Source: Plicaturopsis crispa FD-325 SS-3 | Taxonomy: Eukaryota > Basidiomycota > Agaricomycetes > Amylocorticiales > Amylocorticiaceae | NCBI GenBank assembly: GCA_000827205.1 | Contig: KN832554.1 | Coordinates: forward strand, 1,486,345-1,550,344 | Direction: 5' to 3' | Length of the DNA stretch: 64,000 bases | Shown: positions 3,954 through 64,000 of the stretch, in pieces | Layout of the letters: each line of letters begins with the position of its first letter | How positions within the stretch are numbered: position 1 is the first letter of the stretch | The notes under the pieces: model-generated | What the model saw: only the letters and a program-made list of their open reading frames with translations | What the model was told of the DNA's origin: nothing | The model's database searches: none | Made by a program: the position numbers and the translations under genes

Positions 3954-4186
3954 ATAACAAGCAGGAAGGAGGAGGCAGATGTAGTTGACCGTGAGCCTCG
4001 AGGACCGATGCAAGACCGATGGCAGATGTCTTTTCAAACCCCGCGTTTACCATGAAATCGGCACCAATTTGTTTCGTTCCGTCAAAGAATCGAAAGAACT
4101 CGCGCATAGAAAATCATCTCGGAGTCTGCGGTCTATGCTGCACGACGACTATATGTACATTGCAATGGTACACGCAAATGGGATTT

Positions 4187-35184: not shown

Positions 35185-38100
35185 ATGCCGCCACCGAGTC
35201 CGACAGCAGTCCCTTGGCACGACTGGAAGCTCGATTCGACCTTCGTGCAGTCCTTGAGTGCGTATGAAAGCGGTCATCCCGAAACCACCTTTGATAAGGT
35301 GATCGGGGCCATCCTCACTGCTGCCGACTATGGCAAGAGCTTTGAGAGCTACATTGTGAGTCCTCGTCGTGATGTCCATACTTGCATTTCAGTTGCTAAG
35401 CGCAGAAAAGCCGAATAGTCCATTTCCCGCACAGACGGTTGTGACCGCGATCATCAGTATTCTTACGGTGGGGAAGGTATGCCAATGTATTCTGACTGGA
35501 ACGTATCCGTATATTCTTATGAGGGCCACGCAGGAAATCAAATCTGCACGGGGTAACGCGGTAGCGCTCGCCAAAGAGATAGCAGAGTGGATCGAGAACA
35601 TCATCAAGACATTCCAAAATCATGGACCTGGCGTGTTTACGACCGAGGTATGGGACCATCTTCAAAAAAAACGGTTCGCATTCTGCATGAGTTGAAACTA
35701 TATGATTGTGACGCTGATTATATTTCCAGGGACCTCGTCATTGAAATCTTTGACTGGGCGCACACGAGAATGGTTGGCCCATAAACCTCATTCCGCGGCT
35801 TTTACTTCGCCTGACTTGTGCACACATAGACTGAACGAGGTCTCAAAAGAATCACCCACGGGCTGAAAGTCAAGGACGAGATCCAGGAGTTTAAACAAAA
35901 GTTTGCCAAGGCCCGGGACGATTTTATGGTGAGGGCTCTTGAGCCGAATCCCTTGAACTAGAAATGACAAATCCCTTGTAGGAAGTCTCTGTGGTGACAT
36001 TAACGCAGGCAGCAGAAGCCCAGCTCGACCTAGTTGGTGAAGTAAAGGCTATGCTCGAAAAACGCGAGGAGAAGGATATGGCTAAGGAAAGCCGCGACCA
36101 ACTTCGCGGCATGCTTAGTCGCCGCGTTGATTCACCTGCCTACCGTCCCGACCGACTGTGCCTTGAGGACACCCGTGTCGATATTTTTGACGACCTCGCA
36201 CGATGGTACCTTGACTTAGCACCCGAATCCCCCAGGCTGTACTGGATCACCGGAATCCCTGGATGTGGAAAAAGCAGCATCGTTTCCTCGTTCACCCAAG
36301 CGCTTTCGGATACTGGAAAAGTATGGGCGGAATATCGCTTTGACAGACAAGTCGCGGCGACCACCAGCGCAGACGTACTGTTCCCCTCCCTCGCCTCTCA
36401 GTTTGCCGACCCGAGACATCCGCCGTCGATCGCGGAAGCCATTCTCAAGTCCTTCCAGAACCAGCCCTCGCTAGCGAATGGATTGAGTCCCGCTCAGGCT
36501 GAGAAACTATTCACGCAGCCACTTCAGTCAATCGCTGCCTTGGACAGCACCTCTCCCGTCATTCTCGTCATAGATGCCCTCGACGAATGCGCCGTGGCTC
36601 GTCGTAAGGACCTGGCGCGCCTTTTATCGAAGGCAATTGGTCAACTCCCTGTCAACGTCAAGATTGTTATCTCCAGCCGACCGGAGGACGACATTGTCCT
36701 CGCATTCCGGCCTCTCCTGAGCCAGGGTCGTGCAAAGATGCTAAATCTTGACACGGAAAGTGCATCGTCGATCCACGATGTTCGCGTTTTTGTTGAGCAT
36801 CGGTTCAAGGAAATCAGAGACGAATACAACGAATGGAGAGACGAATCCGAGGCGCTGGATCCTGAGTGGCCGGGCTCACAACGTATAGATGAACTGTGTG
36901 CAAGAGCGTCAGGTTTGTTCGTGTGGGCAAAGACCGCCCTCGGTACGTCAGACCGCTTTATCTCTACCCGGTTCATATGCTCATCCATTCACAGCATTTG
37001 TTGCGGATGAACTCGAGATACACGGAGAGCAACGTATTGCACATGTGTTCGATATTCTTCTCACAGAATCCATGGGCGATATCGATCAGCTTTATCTTAC
37101 GGTTCTCCAGCAAGCATACAATAATCCGAGGTTTCTTGCCTCCGACTTTGAGGTGTTCCGCAAATTCATGGGAGCGGTAGTGCTGCTCGTAGAACCCCTT
37201 CCCCGCGGTGAGCTCAAAAAGTTTCTTGACCTTCGCGTCACACAGGGTACAAGGGAAGAGATCCCGGATTTCGTCCCCCTCTTCGCTCGGCTACGATCTA
37301 TCCTTGCCCCTGCAGTCACAACCATCACCGATGACACCAAACCAAACCTCCATAAGAGCTTTGTCGACTTCATAACCGATGCTAGCCGCTGCACGGACGC
37401 GAGGTTTTGTATCGACGCCGGAATCACCCATGAACACCTCAGCCTATGCTCCCTCCGTATTCTCAATACATTGCGGCGTAATCCCTGCAGCCTCGAGGAC
37501 GTGACTAAATACAACTCTGAATTTCCGGACCTTCAGGATCGTATCAGAGTGGCCATTCCTCCGCACATGCGATATGCGTGTGTTTCTTGGTCTATTCATC
37601 TTGCCGACAGGTACGACGGCCCACTAGTCGACGCCGTGGTGCAAGCTTTCCAGGTCTATTTATCGCGTCACCTTCTGAACTGGCTAGAGGTCATGAGCCT
37701 GCTACGGGTAGGCGGTCCAGGTTCCACCATTGTCGCTGAGATATTGTACCGTGCCTCAAGGTGGGCTAAGGTCAGTCTCAAAAGCGTGCCTTCCCATTTT
37801 TTCGAGCTGTACTGTTTGCTTAAAAACACTGTGTAGATTCATCCCATTCTGAAGAGCGATGACACTGCACAAGCGCTGCTATTCGACGCTATGCGCTTCG
37901 CTTACCACTTTCACAACGATCTGTCCTCGGCTGCCTCCCAACTCTATATCACGATGCTGCCTTGGTGCCCGACCAATTCACATATCTACGCCCAGTACAT
38001 GCCATATAACGACCCATGTGCCCGGCTTGTATCTGGCTCCCCATCATCGTGGTCTTCGGTCGAGCGTTGCATCTTCACTATCAGTGCGACGGCCATCACG

Positions 38101-39672
38101 TATTCTCCCGATGGCGCGTATCTTCTCATGGGCAACAACGATTGGGGGGAGCTCCAGCTGAGGCATGTAGTGTCGGGATGGACCCATACTGGGTGCTACT
38201 CATTTGGGCGGCACCGTGAGCCGCTGAAAGCTGTATCATTCTCTAGAGACGGCCGCAAGATCCTCACGCGCTCGCAAGGCCTGGTCTATATCTGGGAAAG
38301 CTCATCGTATACCTCGGTTTTCCAGCTGGCGAGCTATTCAGATCCCGACATACGGGATGCACGCCTGTCGTCCGACGGTCTCCGGGCATATATAGCACTC
38401 CGTGGACGGATCATCACGTTGGATTCGGCTGACGGTCGCGAGGTTGGTTCCTCTCAATACCCAGATGGTGGTATCTCGTCGGCAGTCTCTATCCATCCCG
38501 ACGAGCGTCATATTATACTCGGTACGTCTGACGGCGCAATCGAGTTCTACGATACAAAGGATGCTCGCCTGGAGTGGACGAGCAAACCTGAGGGCAAAGG
38601 TCGAATAGACCGGCTTTTGTTCTCCCCAGACGGATCGTTGTTTGCTGCCACACAAGGTGACTATTCAAGTTTGCATATATTCCACACTGCAACTGGCCAG
38701 CTGCGGACCTGTGTCGTCCGAGAGGAATCGTTTTTTCGTGGTCTTTCTTGGTCGCCCGACAACAGCCGTATAGCATTGGGAATGATCCTTGCCCGACCAG
38801 TTGACGCAAAGGTCCGTTCCAGCTGTGGCCTATGGGATCTCAGCTCCGAGCAGGAGCCTGTGGTGGACCCCGCGTGTACAGCAGCGCTGAGACAGTGGCC
38901 CCCTGACAATGAGGTCACGTCTTCAGCAATTTCGACGACCACGTTCTCCCCAGACGGCGAACAAATCCTTGCGGTAACGGACGATGGCTACATACAGTTC
39001 TGGGACTGCAGCATACTTCGAGGCGGTCTTGAGCTTCGTCATTTCGAGACCGCGAGAGACCGCGCCATGGAGACTCTGGCGAGGAACACCGTGTATAAGG
39101 ACTTCGCGGAACCAGTCTCTTTCTCCGACGACGATGAATGGGTGGTTGGTGTCCTCGGAAAGGCAAACGCAGTGAATGCGATCCCCTTCCTGCCGGTGAA
39201 GCCCCCAGAGATACTCTCGCAGAGCGTCCTGGTATACGAGGCGCGGACAGGCAGCCAGATTTTGCGATGCGAAATTCTTCCCCCGCAACCCAACTCTGTT
39301 GTCCATTTCACTCCCTCGAAGGAGCATTTTGTCTTGGTTGATTTCGACATTGGTCTCGGGCGTACATGGCATATCGGGACGGCCTCAGAAGTGTTCGACC
39401 GCGCTTCCGACGTCCAAGATCTGATAGACAAGCACCGTAGTGGTCAGGCTCCCTGCCAGCCCAGAAATCGTCGTCAGTTCTCGTGGGATATCGCCTACTC
39501 ATGGGTCTGCAGTGACGACGGGAGGAGACGTTTTCTGAAGGCCGACCACAGGAACAGGATCGACTATGATGATTTTGTGTGGAACAGGCGGGGAGATATG
39601 TGTGCTGGGATTAATCCTGCCACCGAACACATGCTCATAGTCGATTGTAGCAAGATACCGTCCGCGGAATAA
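35185..39672 (+). CDS. NACHT-WD40 STAND protein (fungal NLR-like)
   Basis: Signal-transduction NTPase with numerous domains, the architecture of fungal NLR-like receptors used in non-self recognition or programmed cell death. About 1,360 residues, seven introns. The N-terminal 250 residues (MPPPSPTAVPWHDWKLDSTF, FDKVIGAILTAADYGKSFES, GNAVALAKEIAEWIENIIKT) are helical and spread over five small exons; I cannot assign them to a named domain. The NACHT core has Walker A YWITGIPGCGKSSIVSSF, Walker B VILVIDALDEC and sensor-like VKIVISSRPEDD, then the helical part SQRIDELCARASGLFVWAKT. From about 38090, degenerate WD repeats read ITYSPDGAYLLMG, VSFSRDGRKILTR, VSIHPDERHIILGTSDG, LLFSPDGSLFAAT, LSWSPDNSRIALGM and TTFSPDGEQILAVTDDGYIQ. 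The repeats are divergent, unlike the near-identical ones of fast-evolving NLRs. The gene looks intact. Confidence 0.88.
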
Positions 39673-58360: not shown

Positions 58361-61300
58361 TCAAGCGAAAGGAAATTTCGATCGGTCTAACTTAGAAATC
58401 GAAGGAACCGGCGGCACGTTTGGAAGAGGAAGTACAGGGAGCCTAGACGACGGTCGATCTTGGTCGTGTATCACTGCGCAGTTGGAAGAGGGAAAGTTGC
58501 TCAGTAAGCCGTGTATATGGTTGATAGGGAAACACACTTACCAGAGGAAGGTATGCTTGAGAAATCTCGAACCCTTTGCAGCACAAGGCTATCTCGTTTC
58601 TGCGGTACGCGTCGCGGAGCACCGACGGATTTCGAGCGATCGTGGGTGGGCGTTGCTTTCTCAGCCATCGCGTGACGGGACATGGGCACCGATTTGGCTC
58701 GGCTCAGCGCTGACGTGGAGGGTGCGAGATCCTCAGGTGTCGTGGAAAGCCTACGGACATACCCAGCTGGCTTGGTAGAAGAAAGCGGCGGAGGGGGCGG
58801 CATAGACTTCCGCGATTGCGCGGGACTCGATGGGAGGCCATGTGAGGGGAGCGCTTTGTCAACAGGAGTGTCTGTTACGTTGGCTGCAGCAGACATGCGA
58901 GAAAGAGGCCGGGGACCAACGGGTAAAGGTCTAGCATTGGCAATTGATCCTGACCTTGGTCGCGCTCGAGGACCTAGTGGCGCGGGGTCTCTAGCGAACG
59001 AAACTCTATGCGACACTGCATCGGACGGCTCCGAGACGTGGGCAGTATCATCGGGCGTATTCCTACTCCGTAGTTGCGTTGACGGTCTTGTCGGCGGTGT
59101 CCCACTAGGAGTGAAGACATTCCCATCCGGAAATACCAACATATGCAAGTCTATATGTGTCTTCGCTGGTTTGCGGGGCAGACGCATGGGTGAGTTGGAA
59201 GGGTTTACTCTGGACGGAGGTGTTTGTGCCGATCCAGTGCTCGGCTTGGGACGTGACGAAATTATAGGACCTATAATACTGGGCCAGAGCTCGAACGACG
59301 GATATACAGCAGGGTCTGGCAAAAGGTCAGTGATGCTATTAGACGTAGTAGAGTCGTCATGTAAGATACTCACAGAGATCAAACGCCGGGTACACGGCAG
59401 GAAGCTTCATGATGATCGGTCTATTTCTCTCATGCACTTCAATCATCTCGGAATGGTAGATGTCGAAAACCGGATAGACAGCTGGATCTGTGACGTTACA
59501 AATAGGTCGTTAGACATAACGTAGAGCAAGTGGAAGTAGTACTCACAAAGGTCAAACAGCGGATATCTGGGCTGCAATCTGACGGCAATGTCGTCTAAAT
59601 TGTGGCGAGTTTTAGAAGCTTGTTGAGATGCCTCTGTGGACGACGCCACCGCCGGATAGATATTTAAGTGAGGGTAGACACTGGGGTCTGCAGTTCACGA
59701 GACAGTATCATTAGACGGTTGAGTACCGGCGAAATACAGCAAACAAACTCACACAGGTCAAATGTGGGGTAAGTAACACTCAGCCGAATCTGGAGCGTTT
59801 TACGTTCAGCGACGACGTTGTACGGAGCTTGCGGGTAGATGGCATCTAGATTCTTGGGATAGACCGCAGGGTCTAATGAATATGCATCAGACACCTATTC
59901 ACAGTGTATATATTCACGCAAGGACTCACAAAGATCGAAATAGGGATAGCCTGGCTGAGCAAGCTTGACGACTATCGAATCCTGGGAAGGTCTCGACTCA
60001 ACAGCTTTCCGCGATGGAATCTGCGGATATATAGTCTCGAGATTCTTGGGATAGACCGCAGGATCTGATGAACATGGATTAGGTACCTCTTCATATTACA
60101 TATATGCACGCAAGAACTCACACAGATCGAAATAGGGATAGCCCGGTTGAGGAAGCTTGACGACTATCGAATCCTGGGAAGTTCTCGACTCAACAGCTTT
60201 CGATGGAACCTGTGGATATATAGTATCGAGATTCTTGGGATATCCAGCGGGATCTGCGAAGGGGTCAGAAACAGTGACGCTAGCCCAACGATTGACTTAC
60301 AGAGGTCGAAGAAAGGGTAATTCGAAGAAAGCTTGACCACAACAGTAGCTGGAGTCCTCGAGCGAACCAATGAAACCGACGGATAGATTGCCGAAAGATT
60401 GTACGGATAGACTGCTGGGTCTGGGAACAACAATCAGGCTCATCAATAAGGACAACAAAACAGGTGAGCGCTCACAAAGATCGAAGACAGGATACACGTT
60501 TTGGAGCCGTGTGATAACTACCAAGGGCCTTGCAAGGCCCTTGGACGATGCCACCTTTTTCGGTGTACGCTGAGCGGGCATTTGAACGGGAGGATCTGCG
60601 AAGGCCGCTGTTTAGCACCGGAGACAGAACTAAGGACAACGAATTGACATACAAAATACGCTGGTCGTTGACGTGGCCACCTTGGCAGACATACTACTAG
60701 GTGCAGGGTAGATGTCGAAGTGCGGATAGACAGCCGGGTCTATTGACAGCTAGTCAGTAAGTTTTTGAGCACATGATCCGCATAAGCTTACAGATATTGA
60801 ACGCAGGGTAGGATGCGGGGAGGGAGACGGACACCTCATCACTCGTGGATGCATCAGCGCGTACACTGGGGTAAATGCACTTCAGGCTATCCGGGTACGA
60901 CGCGGGATCTTGATATGTTCCGTCAGCCACCGCAGGGGTTCAGAAGCAATCGAGGCACTCACAAAGGTCAAAAGTAGGATACTTGGGTTCGAGCTTAACG
61001 ACGACAGGTGTCAGGCCATCAGGGGAGCTCGTTTCCCAGTGCATAGGTACGGCAGGATACAGATCGAAATGAGGATAGCCCGCGACTGTGCTGGAAGATG
61101 AGCGGGAGTGTTGCCCAGACCGGTCCTCTACCTTGGCGTAAGGCCACACATGCCCCCAAGGGCGCCCTTTCCAGGCATCATAGTAGGGGAAGACGAGACT
61201 CCTGGGTGCACGAGTCTCACGTGGAGCAATGCTGTCGCGATCGAAAGCGCGCTGGCCCGCATCCGGCGTCTGCACATAGAATGGGGTGGTAGGGCTTGGC

Positions 61301-63080
61301 GGGAATGATAGCGGAGCACCCCAGGATGTCGCCGTGGAAGGAGTAGCGGGACGACTCCACTGACCACGAAGACCAAGGTCCACTGACGGTGCGCGGGATA
61401 CTTCGAAAGGCGATGCAGGCCAGGATGCAGGACCCCAGCTGGTGGCTGTCGAGGGCGTAGCCGGTCTGCTGAACGCGTTCCGGTGCCCAATGTCAATCGA
61501 AGGGGGCCGGTAATCACTGTATGCAGGTGACGCAGGCCAGGAAGGCGCACCCCAGCTAGTTGCAGTCGTGGGTGTCACCGGTGCATCGTCCACCATGCGC
61601 ATACCCAAGTCGATGGAGGGAGGTCGGGAGACGTCCGACATCGGGGAGTGAAGATCGTAATCAAATGGCCCAAAAGATGTGCACGTAGTAGGCGTCATAC
61701 CCACAGACCCCTGGTTACGCTGGCCGAGGTGGACAGACAAAACACGGTCTGAGGACATTGGAGAGTACATCTCATCGTAGAAGGGGCCGGCGGATGAGAT
61801 TGACCACTGATAGTCCTCGAGACGTATCTCGATTTCGACATCCTCTATGGCCATGTCATCATCAAGTGTCACGGTGTTAGGCATGTTAGCTGGTTCAAGA
61901 CTCGTCTGCCCTGTGGCAGCCATGGGAGTGGGCGCAACCGAAGAGCTAGCCCGCCAAGTATTAACTCGGCGTTGCAAGTCCTGCCTGGCTGTTTGGGGCT
62001 CGTCCTCCTGGTTGATAGGCCCTAACGTTTGGATCGTCTGCCGAGCATCGACGTGGTCGCCTATTTGAGACAGAGCAGACATAGACTCATAGCGGTCTAC
62101 AAGCGACAATTTCCTCGGGACGCGTCGTAACGTCGTGGAAAGGGTAGCTGGCGCACTGATATTGTGTTCGAGCTCGAATCCGCTTTGGTCTTCAGTGACA
62201 AGTGTTGTCCGGCTGTCGCCTCTCGTGTGAGAGACTGAAGGGGGCTGAGAGGCCACAGACTGTGGGACGTCTACCGGAGCCCTTTGAGCTCCTGTGATCC
62301 AAGAGTCGTACCACCGAGCTTTACGCATATCGATGTCGAATTCGATACGACCACTGATTGGAATTTGAGTCTGAGCGGACGGGGATCTGGCATCGAATAA
62401 ATGGCTCCATAGAAATTGCCATGTCTCATCGGAAACGCGAGGTGTCATGGTCATTCCACCCTCTGTGACGTGGAGGTAGACGCATATGCCTGACGTGCTA
62501 GGGAAATTGAACTCCCTGGCAATAGCAGAAAGTTGGCCGTACATCTTGGATTAAAGCTTTATTAAGCCTGTTATTTTTGCCAAGAGCACAATAAACTTAC
62601 AGTTGGAAAGAGCGGCATCAATATTCCATGAGATAGCCTATGACTAGGGCCAGACGACAATGTGTGACCGAACTGTGCATGTCCCTGCGACACTGAAGTC
62701 GGGGGAATGACGACGACGAACGACTTCGAGCTCCTAGAGCGTTCTCGTGGCTCCCGAAGACCAGAGCTACGGTAGGCGAGCGTTGACACCTTCCGAAAGC
62801 GCGCACCCGGAGAATCGGTATCTGAAGCTGGAGCTGGCTGCATTGGGGTCAAGCGTGGCAACGGAGGGTGCATCATGGGCGCTTCGGGGGCCGAATATTG
62901 CACAAATCCGTTGTCGAATTCCATTGGCAGAGCCGCCTGTACCAAACCGGAGCCCGAAGCCATGTTTGCTTGGCTTGCAAACTCGGAGTCGGTGTCAGGA
63001 GGTGTCAGGGGATGGATAGGCCGAGCACCGACGTCGAAAGGTGAGGGTTTGTGGAAAGGCGAAGCAGTAAGGCGAGACAT
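58361..63080 (-). CDS. Unrecognised protein with a C-terminal array of exon-encoded YPxFDLYPAVYP repeats
   Basis: No named family. My reading has 13 exons, 4,035 nt in total, 1,344 residues. Exon 1 (63080-62601) is Pro/Ser-rich: MSRLTASPFHKPSPFDVGAR. Exon 2 (62544-60963) opens with a folded-looking block, MYGQLSAIAREFNFPSTSGI, CVYLHVTEGGMTMTPRVSDE, TWQFLWSHLFD and ISGRIEFDIDMRKARWYDSW. It then has a disordered part with four or five TPxTATSWG...PASP repeats, and ends with the first YP unit (YPHFDLYPAV...YPTFDL). Nine short exons (117, 87, 120, 120, 132, 135, 120, 141, 114 nt) follow, each a variant of PAVYP-x2-L-x2-IYP...VVKL...YPxFDL. Every join splits a Tyr codon as T|AY. The last two exons give PAVYPSFELWPSI, a Ser/Pro/Arg-rich tail and SISKLDRSKFPFA. 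The total is an exact multiple of three, which supports the model. Function unknown; a repeat-based scaffold is only a guess. Confidence 0.75.
59374..60908 (-). repeat. Array of nine phase-1 symmetric repeat exons
   Basis: Exons read at 60908-60792, 60739-60653, 60595-60476, 60420-60301, 60253-60122, 60064-59930, 59872-59753, 59687-59547 and 59487-59374. Each is a multiple of 3 nt, begins AC or AT (last two bases of a Tyr codon) and ends in a single T before GTGAGT, GTAAG or GTATG. Most end with a YPxFDL segment and start PAVYP or PAGYP. Introns are about 47-65 nt. The two exons at 60253-60122 and 60064-59930 and their downstream introns are nearly alike, marking a recent duplication of a 189-bp unit. 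Confidence 0.85.
61300..61760 (-). repeat. In-gene protein repeat, TPxTATSWG...PASP unit
   Basis: Within exon 2 of the gene above, four to five copies of a unit of about 40 residues occur: a RPPSIDLGMR-type segment, then TPTTATSWGAPSWPASP. The members read VGMTPTTCTSFG, APVTPTTATSWGAPSWPASP, RPATPSTATSWGPASWPASP and RPATPSTATSWGAPLSFPPS. The nucleotide sequence is also repetitive. Likely disordered linker that grew by tandem duplication. Confidence 0.8.
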
Positions 63081-63644: not shown

Positions 63645-64000
63645 ATGGAGGCAAGGCTCTCACAGATATCAGAACTCAGCCAGAAGGACAAGGCGCCTGC
63701 ATTTCTGTCGCTTCTGTCTGAGGTTTTGTCGAGGCAAGACCAAGCAACGATAGCGCAAGACCTACACCTGCTCGTGGACACAGTAGTCAATCAGGAAAGC
63801 GTGGGTCTCGTCGTGGGCAGACAAGTACTATCTGAACTCGTCAAATATCTCGGAGAAGGGTCCATTCAAGACTCGGATTTACGGAAACGCGTCGTAGAGG
63901 ACACACTCGCCACTGCGCAGCCACGGATTGTTAGCTATGAAGAACAGGTCAGATCTCATCAACTCACCGCCAACTACCTTAGCTGACTTTTGATGTCTAG
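63645..64000 (+). CDS. CSN4: COP9 signalosome subunit 4 (partial, first exon only)
   Basis: PCI-domain subunit of the COP9 signalosome, which removes NEDD8 from cullin ubiquitin ligases. Only exon 1 lies in the window: MEARLSQISELSQKDKAPAF, LSLLSEVLSRQDQATIAQDL, HLLVDTVVNQESVGLVVGRQ, VLSELVKYLGEGSIQDSD and VVEDTLATAQPRIVSYEEQ. VNQESVGLVVGRQVL and QPRIVSYEEQ match the N-terminal region of Csn4 (human VNENVSLVISRQLL and QPRVISFEEQ). The exon ends in phase 0 at 63947. The following intron starts GTCAGATC and reaches an acceptor TCTAG exactly at the window end. The gene continues to the right. Confidence 0.88.

Follow-up and report, generated by a model that had tools for sequence, protein, structure and literature searches.

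Can a run of very short exons, each encoding part of a tyrosine- and proline-rich repeat, be one gene, and if so, how did the array arise and what might its product do? This question is raised by a minus-strand locus of the basidiomycete Plicaturopsis crispa FD-325 SS-3 (assembly GCA_000827205.1, contig KN832554.1), which we analysed within a window of 64,000 nucleotides (positions 1,486,345 to 1,550,344 of the contig; all coordinates below are those of the window). In all probability the locus is a genuine protein-coding gene. Sequence comparison shows that the units of its Tyr-Pro (YP) array are homologous, that the pair of exons 7 and 8 arose by copying of an exon together with its intron, and that this pair diverged under purifying selection. 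The product may serve as a docking scaffold.

Rebuilding of the gene from the raw sequence yielded 13 exons and 12 GT-AG introns of 47-68 nucleotides, and a coding sequence of exactly 4,035 nucleotides (1,344 amino acids) with a single, terminal stop at 58361. The sequence-only reading had claimed this exon number and this exact closure, and starting from its end points we reproduced both. Since the gene start and stop were adopted from that reading and the acceptors of exons 2, 3 and 5 were picked by eye, the agreement at 4,035 nucleotides is an arithmetic and splice-site check and not a blind prediction. An automatic splice search that accepted CAG and TAG acceptors only gave models of 16-17 exons in which the 5' part (exons 1 and 2) was fragmented, and these were replaced by the hand-checked 13-exon model; the borders of exons 4 and 6-12 were the same in both, and exons 3 and 5 had other acceptors. 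The elements of the gene are the following (basis in brackets).

58361..63080, minus strand: whole coding region, 13 exons, 1,344 amino acids (GT-AG introns, 4,035 coding nucleotides, single end stop)
62601..63080, minus strand: exon 1, 480 nucleotides, N-terminal tail, then the beginning of a possible folded segment (annotated frame ranks first of six)
60963..62544, minus strand: exon 2, 1,582 nucleotides, possible folded segment, SID repeat array and first YP block (gene model, annotated frame best of six)
60792..60908, minus strand: exon 3, 117 nucleotides, phase 1-1 (gene model)
60653..60739, minus strand: exon 4, 87 nucleotides, first part of an interrupted unit (gene model)
60476..60595, minus strand: exon 5, 120 nucleotides, continuation of the interrupted unit, starting with YPPVQMPA (gene model)
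60301..60420, minus strand: exon 6, 120 nucleotides (gene model)
60122..60253, minus strand: exon 7, 132 nucleotides (gene model and pairwise comparison)
60065..60121, minus strand: intron 7, 77% identical to intron 8 (pairwise comparison)
59930..60064, minus strand: exon 8, 135 nucleotides, 91% identical to exon 7 (pairwise comparison)
59873..59929, minus strand: intron 8 (pairwise comparison)
59753..59872, minus strand: exon 9, 120 nucleotides (gene model)
59547..59687, minus strand: exon 10, 141 nucleotides (gene model)
59374..59487, minus strand: exon 11, 114 nucleotides (gene model)
58542..59315, minus strand: exon 12, 774 nucleotides, last half block followed by a Ser/Pro/Arg-rich tail with PPPPP (codon score weak)
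58361..58473, minus strand: exon 13, 113 nucleotides, with the stop codon (codon score weak)
59278..61077, minus strand: YP array, amino acids 650-1062, ten blocks, 37 YP, broken by introns 2-11 (dipeptide positions)
61300..61746, minus strand: second, intron-free repeat array, four copies (motif scan and DNA repeat D6)

The central exons are strikingly regular. Exons 3-11 measure 117, 87, 120, 120, 132, 135, 120, 141 and 114 nucleotides, so that all nine are divisible by three, as had been claimed, and each starts in phase 1. The proposed phase symmetry at a tyrosine codon was found as well: introns 2-11, without exception, cut a Tyr codon as T|AY after its first base, and the next codon is Pro. 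Any single one of exons 3-12 could be removed in frame, and no intron (0 of 12) combines a length divisible by three with an in-frame reading free of stops, as would be needed for harmless retention; introns 2, 4, 7 and 8 have such a length but contain stops, and introns 5, 6, 9 and 10 are open but shift the frame. The claim that the exons join as FDLYPAVYP is exact for five of the ten array junctions (exons 5/6, 7/8, 8/9, 10/11 and 11/12), but the other five read FDLYPASYP, FNIYPAVYP, SVFYPPVQM, FDLYPAGYP and FDLYPSVYP. Similarly, a false Cys appears on read-through at all ten array donors, but only six of these (introns 2 and 7-11) have exactly the GTGAGT to which it had been ascribed. Gene finders could thus cut or split the gene, because at each array donor the false Cys is followed by a stop in the intron or by a frame shift.

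At the protein level the exons and the repeated blocks are out of register: in each exon, the closing half of a block is followed by a variable linker and then by the opening half of the block after it. The YP dipeptides, 37 in the whole protein, are confined to amino acids 650-1062 and, apart from a lone YP at 756, are grouped into ten blocks. The distance from the first to the second YP is six residues in 10 of 10 blocks and that from the second to the third is four residues in the nine full blocks (the first block has two YP only); the last step is eight residues in five blocks and six in two, and in the final two blocks YH or WP is found at that place. In essence, a block contains YPxFD[LI]YPAV two times over, and five blocks have two extra residues inserted in the second of these halves (e.g. 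YPKNLDTIYPQV). Exons 4 and 5 jointly make up one interrupted, partly decayed unit. At their junction (SVFYPPVQM, 60476-60739, minus strand) the coding motif has decayed and the intron site is intact, like a fossil unit boundary.

How the array came about is indicated most clearly by exons 7 and 8, which are identical at 120 of 132 aligned bases (91%, z score 22.2 with 60 shuffles), and by introns 7 and 8, identical at 44 of 57 (77%, z 9.5 with 60 shuffles). A repeat finder detected the same exon/intron duplication as a 180-base repeat with a spacing of 192 bases and 86% identity. Among exons 3-11, 15 of the 36 pairs scored above z 4, exon 5 being part of none of them. Intron pairs scored above z 3 in three of 66 cases, namely 7/8, 4/6 (z 4.8) and 1/3 (z 3.3), of which 7/8 alone is beyond doubt and the latter two are of uncertain meaning. 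Extending what pair 7/8 shows, the array in general may have grown by duplications of an exon plus its intron, and the T|AY intron position would keep every copy frame-neutral. That proteins can be built up through tandem duplication of exons symmetric in phase is a known general concept. The present array resembles such proteins in its same-phase intron borders and in the one pair copied with its intron, but differs from them in that the unit belongs to no Pfam family and in that block and exon are out of register. Repeat proteins with duplicated symmetric exons are already known as a type of system; the repeat itself is uncatalogued in the sources that we searched.

The differences between the copies carry the signature of selection on the encoded protein. 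Exons 7 and 8 differ in 12 codons (an unpaired codon of exon 8 was excluded), with a nonsynonymous divergence (dN) of 0.050 and a synonymous divergence (dS) of 0.304, and a dS of 0.3 makes an assembly artefact unlikely. In a comparison of seven units (exons 4 and 5 excluded) at 13 codons, dN ranged from 0.03 to 0.35, a range biased to low values as the codons were picked for conservation, and dS was not computable in 18 of the 21 pairs, which we read as saturation. By codon usage the annotated frame ranked first of the six in exons 1 and 2 and in eight of the nine array exons, exon 6 being nearly tied. It was not the best for exons 12 and 13, which makes the 3' end the weakest part of the gene model, and exon 12 scored slightly higher antisense (-0.03 versus -0.11 bits per codon). 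On the plus strand, an open frame of 280 amino acids (58682-59524) covers exon 11 and a large part of exon 12 in antisense orientation; it is probably a shadow frame.

We found no named domain for the repeat, in agreement with the sequence-only reading. Pfam returned no family for the whole 1,344-residue protein at E values up to 10, and for the nine units it gave a match in one only (DUF7077, E 0.16); no family exceeded its gathering score. A profile of the units against PDB sequences gave four matches (best E 0.76), none of which indicates a relative, and exon 2 had no match there. In scans for relatives, the exon 2 pattern gave two matches in viral contigs, a 123-residue part of exon 1 gave 25 matches in viral contigs, and a spliced stretch of 99 residues gave 61 matches in prokaryote genomes and four in viral contigs, none of them confirmed. 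A DNA pattern of the acceptor plus PAVYP occurred in 68 viral stretches, once in each; YPxF[DN][LI], FDLYP and FDLC[EK] were present in none of their 408 frames, and we take these 68 matches to be due to chance. As the scans covered viral contigs and prokaryote genomes and not fungi, absence there weighs little. In text searches of open papers YPAVYP and its longer forms were absent, and related strings occurred in no paper that by its title concerns such a repeat (one of these papers is about antigens of a fungus, PMC7015227). Searches for duplicated exons in basidiomycetes or for repeats of YP gave no paper, and there was none on this gene among the matches listed. The YP repeat is not a catalogued domain in Pfam, PDB sequences or the open papers that we searched. 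This does not imply that it is unique to the species, and unnamed orthologues in other fungi are likely.

As to function, we give roughly even chances to the reading that the YP-array protein is a cytosolic or nuclear multivalent docking scaffold that clusters copies of one putative partner, as suggested by the strictly spaced conserved blocks, the varying linkers and the absence of a membrane stretch (the highest mean hydropathy over 19 residues in the whole protein is 1.0, at residue 1036, inside the array). In such a protein, located in the cytosol or nucleus, the array would display about ten copies of a docking block of some 30 residues on linkers of varying length. Each block would open with a strand-like segment, [VIL]x[VIM][KRS]L, separated by three or four residues from YPxFDLYPAV, after which a second YP half would follow, and the protein would bind and cluster several copies of a single partner. 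AlphaFold2, given the exon-8 unit with six aligned units (exons 4 and 5 left out), predicted no strand (mean predicted local distance difference test score (pLDDT) 69.0, predicted template modelling score 0.18). This agrees weakly with a peptide-like block; as the run concerned a single exon unit, it does not decide between a fold and a peptide.

The main rival to the docking scaffold, possible but clearly less probable in our view, is that the array folds as a repeat domain, for example a beta-rich solenoid or stack, with blocks that pack together and YP forming a structural ladder. Several observations speak for such a fold, and some of them weigh against docking peptides. The strand-like segment precedes eight of the ten blocks, and the block is therewith longer than a ligand of the YPXnL type needs to be; YPxFDLYPAV shows a near two-residue alternation, with the best moment at 160, 170 or 180 degrees exceeding that at 100 degrees in seven of ten blocks (a lenient test, as three angles against one favour 160-180 degrees); and the FoldIndex of the array is positive (0.186, the highest of six regions) and offers no argument for disorder. 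The constant internal spacing of 6-4-6/8 would fit packed blocks as well. A regular stack is harder to reconcile with linkers that vary in length and one unit interrupted by about 25 extra residues, with a composition of five Gly but 59 Pro in the 413 residues of the array, with units that have no sequence relative in the PDB, and with the strandless model of the single exon unit. A more distant alternative, which we consider improbable, is that of a membrane-traffic adaptor whose YPAV, YPSV and YPQV motifs would be sorting signals of the YxxPhi type, read in large number by the mu subunits of AP adaptors. The array contains 31 Yxx[LIVMF] motifs, a number reached in none of 2000 shuffles in which YP was kept. 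Signals of this type are normally located in the tails of membrane cargo; the protein has no membrane stretch and hence no such cytosolic tail, and conservation extends over the rest of the block.

The abundance of Tyr and Pro (42 and 59 of the 413 residues) would also suit a secreted repeat protein with a structural or adhesive role in the cell wall or at the surface, but this is the least likely of the readings considered. No strongly hydrophobic N-terminus was found by 19-residue hydropathy (no dedicated signal-peptide program was run) and the best 19-residue mean of 1.0 leaves no hydrophobic stretch; there are five [KR]R sites in the protein, none of them in the array, and the array has a single Cys. 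In this respect the protein differs from AGL and SP7 of arbuscular mycorrhizal fungi, with which it shares fungal tandem repeats: these are secreted or surface proteins according to the accessible parts of the papers concerned (PMC8786786, PMC11333574), whereas here no signal was seen, and the hydropathy scan revealed none of the features of such proteins (N-terminal signal, glycosylphosphatidylinositol anchor or membrane stretch). According to the same parts of these papers, AGL has one or two introns close to its signal sequence and SP7 a conserved intron ahead of the first repeat, whereas here an intron lies at each repeat junction; they also report that full-length AGL genes are hard to locate in annotated genomes and that SP7 needs at least three repeats for partner binding in the yeast two-hybrid assay. 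Finally, part of the region might not be expressed as drawn, for instance because it holds two genes or a pseudogene. To this we attach little probability, if somewhat more than to a secreted protein. The AAG acceptors required for introns 1 and 2, which are a weaker point of the gene model, the decayed exon 4/5 junction and the weak codon scores of exons 12 and 13 speak for such an error; against it stand the open frame of every array exon, the purifying selection on exons 7 and 8, and the GT donors and AG acceptors of 12 of 12 introns together with the exact closure.

If the product is a docking scaffold, the shape of its motifs makes the V domain of Bro1/ALIX/Rim20-type proteins a candidate partner, since YPxFDL corresponds to YPX3L and YPxNL to YPX2L; we regard this identification as tentative and rather unlikely to be correct. 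YPX1-3[LI] fits 21 of the 37 YP, and 33 if V is allowed. In 2000 shuffles that kept YP, 21 was reached once and 33 never, a significance that is overstated because the units are copies of each other. The excess lies in YPX3[LI] (15 observed, shuffle mean 4.52, reached in 0 of 2000). There are points against this partner: YPX2[LI] shows no excess (five observed, shuffle mean 4.56), the form YPX[LI] named for PalA is found at only two of 37 YP (YPQI at 892 and YPHL at 969; 15 of 37 with V), and the strand-like segment ahead of the blocks suggests a module larger than a YPXnL ligand. Like known YPXnL ligands (PacC for PalA, Rim101 for Rim20, Rfu1 for Bro1, and viral late domains), the blocks have L, I or V one to three residues after YP. 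In the accessible parts of the respective papers, Bro1 proteins are described as binding YPXnL via a conserved FYX2L motif (PMC5145805), and LYPAL, one residue apart from the LYPAV found here, as a putative late domain of murine leukaemia virus Gag (PMC8402826). Aspergillus PalA binds PacC via two YPxL(I) motifs, as far as the available text of PMC4832277 goes, whereas here 37 YP are spread over ten blocks, the conserved block is longer and any binding is putative. The most elaborate version, a scaffold with dozens of YPXnL-type ligands for a Bro1/Rim20 V domain that acts in high-valency signalling linked to the endosomal sorting complex required for transport and has its block number tuned by exon skipping, seems to us doubtful at best. 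The idea of an adjustable block number derives from the observation that each of exons 3-11 is removable in frame, and that the frame is broken whenever one of the 12 introns is retained.

If the gene model is true, a repeat without a Pfam entry is present here that gene finders could easily cut or split, and the locus clearly exemplifies duplication of an exon along with its intron within a repeat array of a fungus. It raises two testable questions: does skipping of exons alter the number of repeats, and by which domain are the YP blocks read? Were that domain of the Bro1/Rim20 type, the protein would to our knowledge be the ligand of highest valency of that kind. Should orthologues prove widespread under a hypothetical label, the result would be a useful annotation and a lead, but no surprise.

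Outside the YP array, exon 2 encodes a second array of four copies (at amino acids 430, 470, 509 and 547, with a spacing of 38-40 residues) with the motifs S[IV][DH][LI]GxR and TPxTATSWG, which is without introns, in contrast to the intron-interrupted YP array. Amino acids 153-243 form a segment that looks compact by eye and is divided by intron 1; an AlphaFold2 model of its exon-2 part (81 residues, single sequence) was uninformative (mean pLDDT 53.1).

The fungal setting fits the Pfam families of the neighbours and the short introns. Of ten neighbouring proteins scanned, six had Pfam matches, including CTNNBL, VID27 and a NACHT/NPHP3_N protein. The first exon of the divergent neighbour (63645-63947, plus strand) matches COP9 signalosome subunit 4 (five PDB sequences, best E 7.1e-05). 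Further away (35991-39672, plus strand), an open reading frame for a NACHT/NPHP3_N ATPase is followed by one with WD40 repeats, and the two perhaps form one fungal NLR-like gene.

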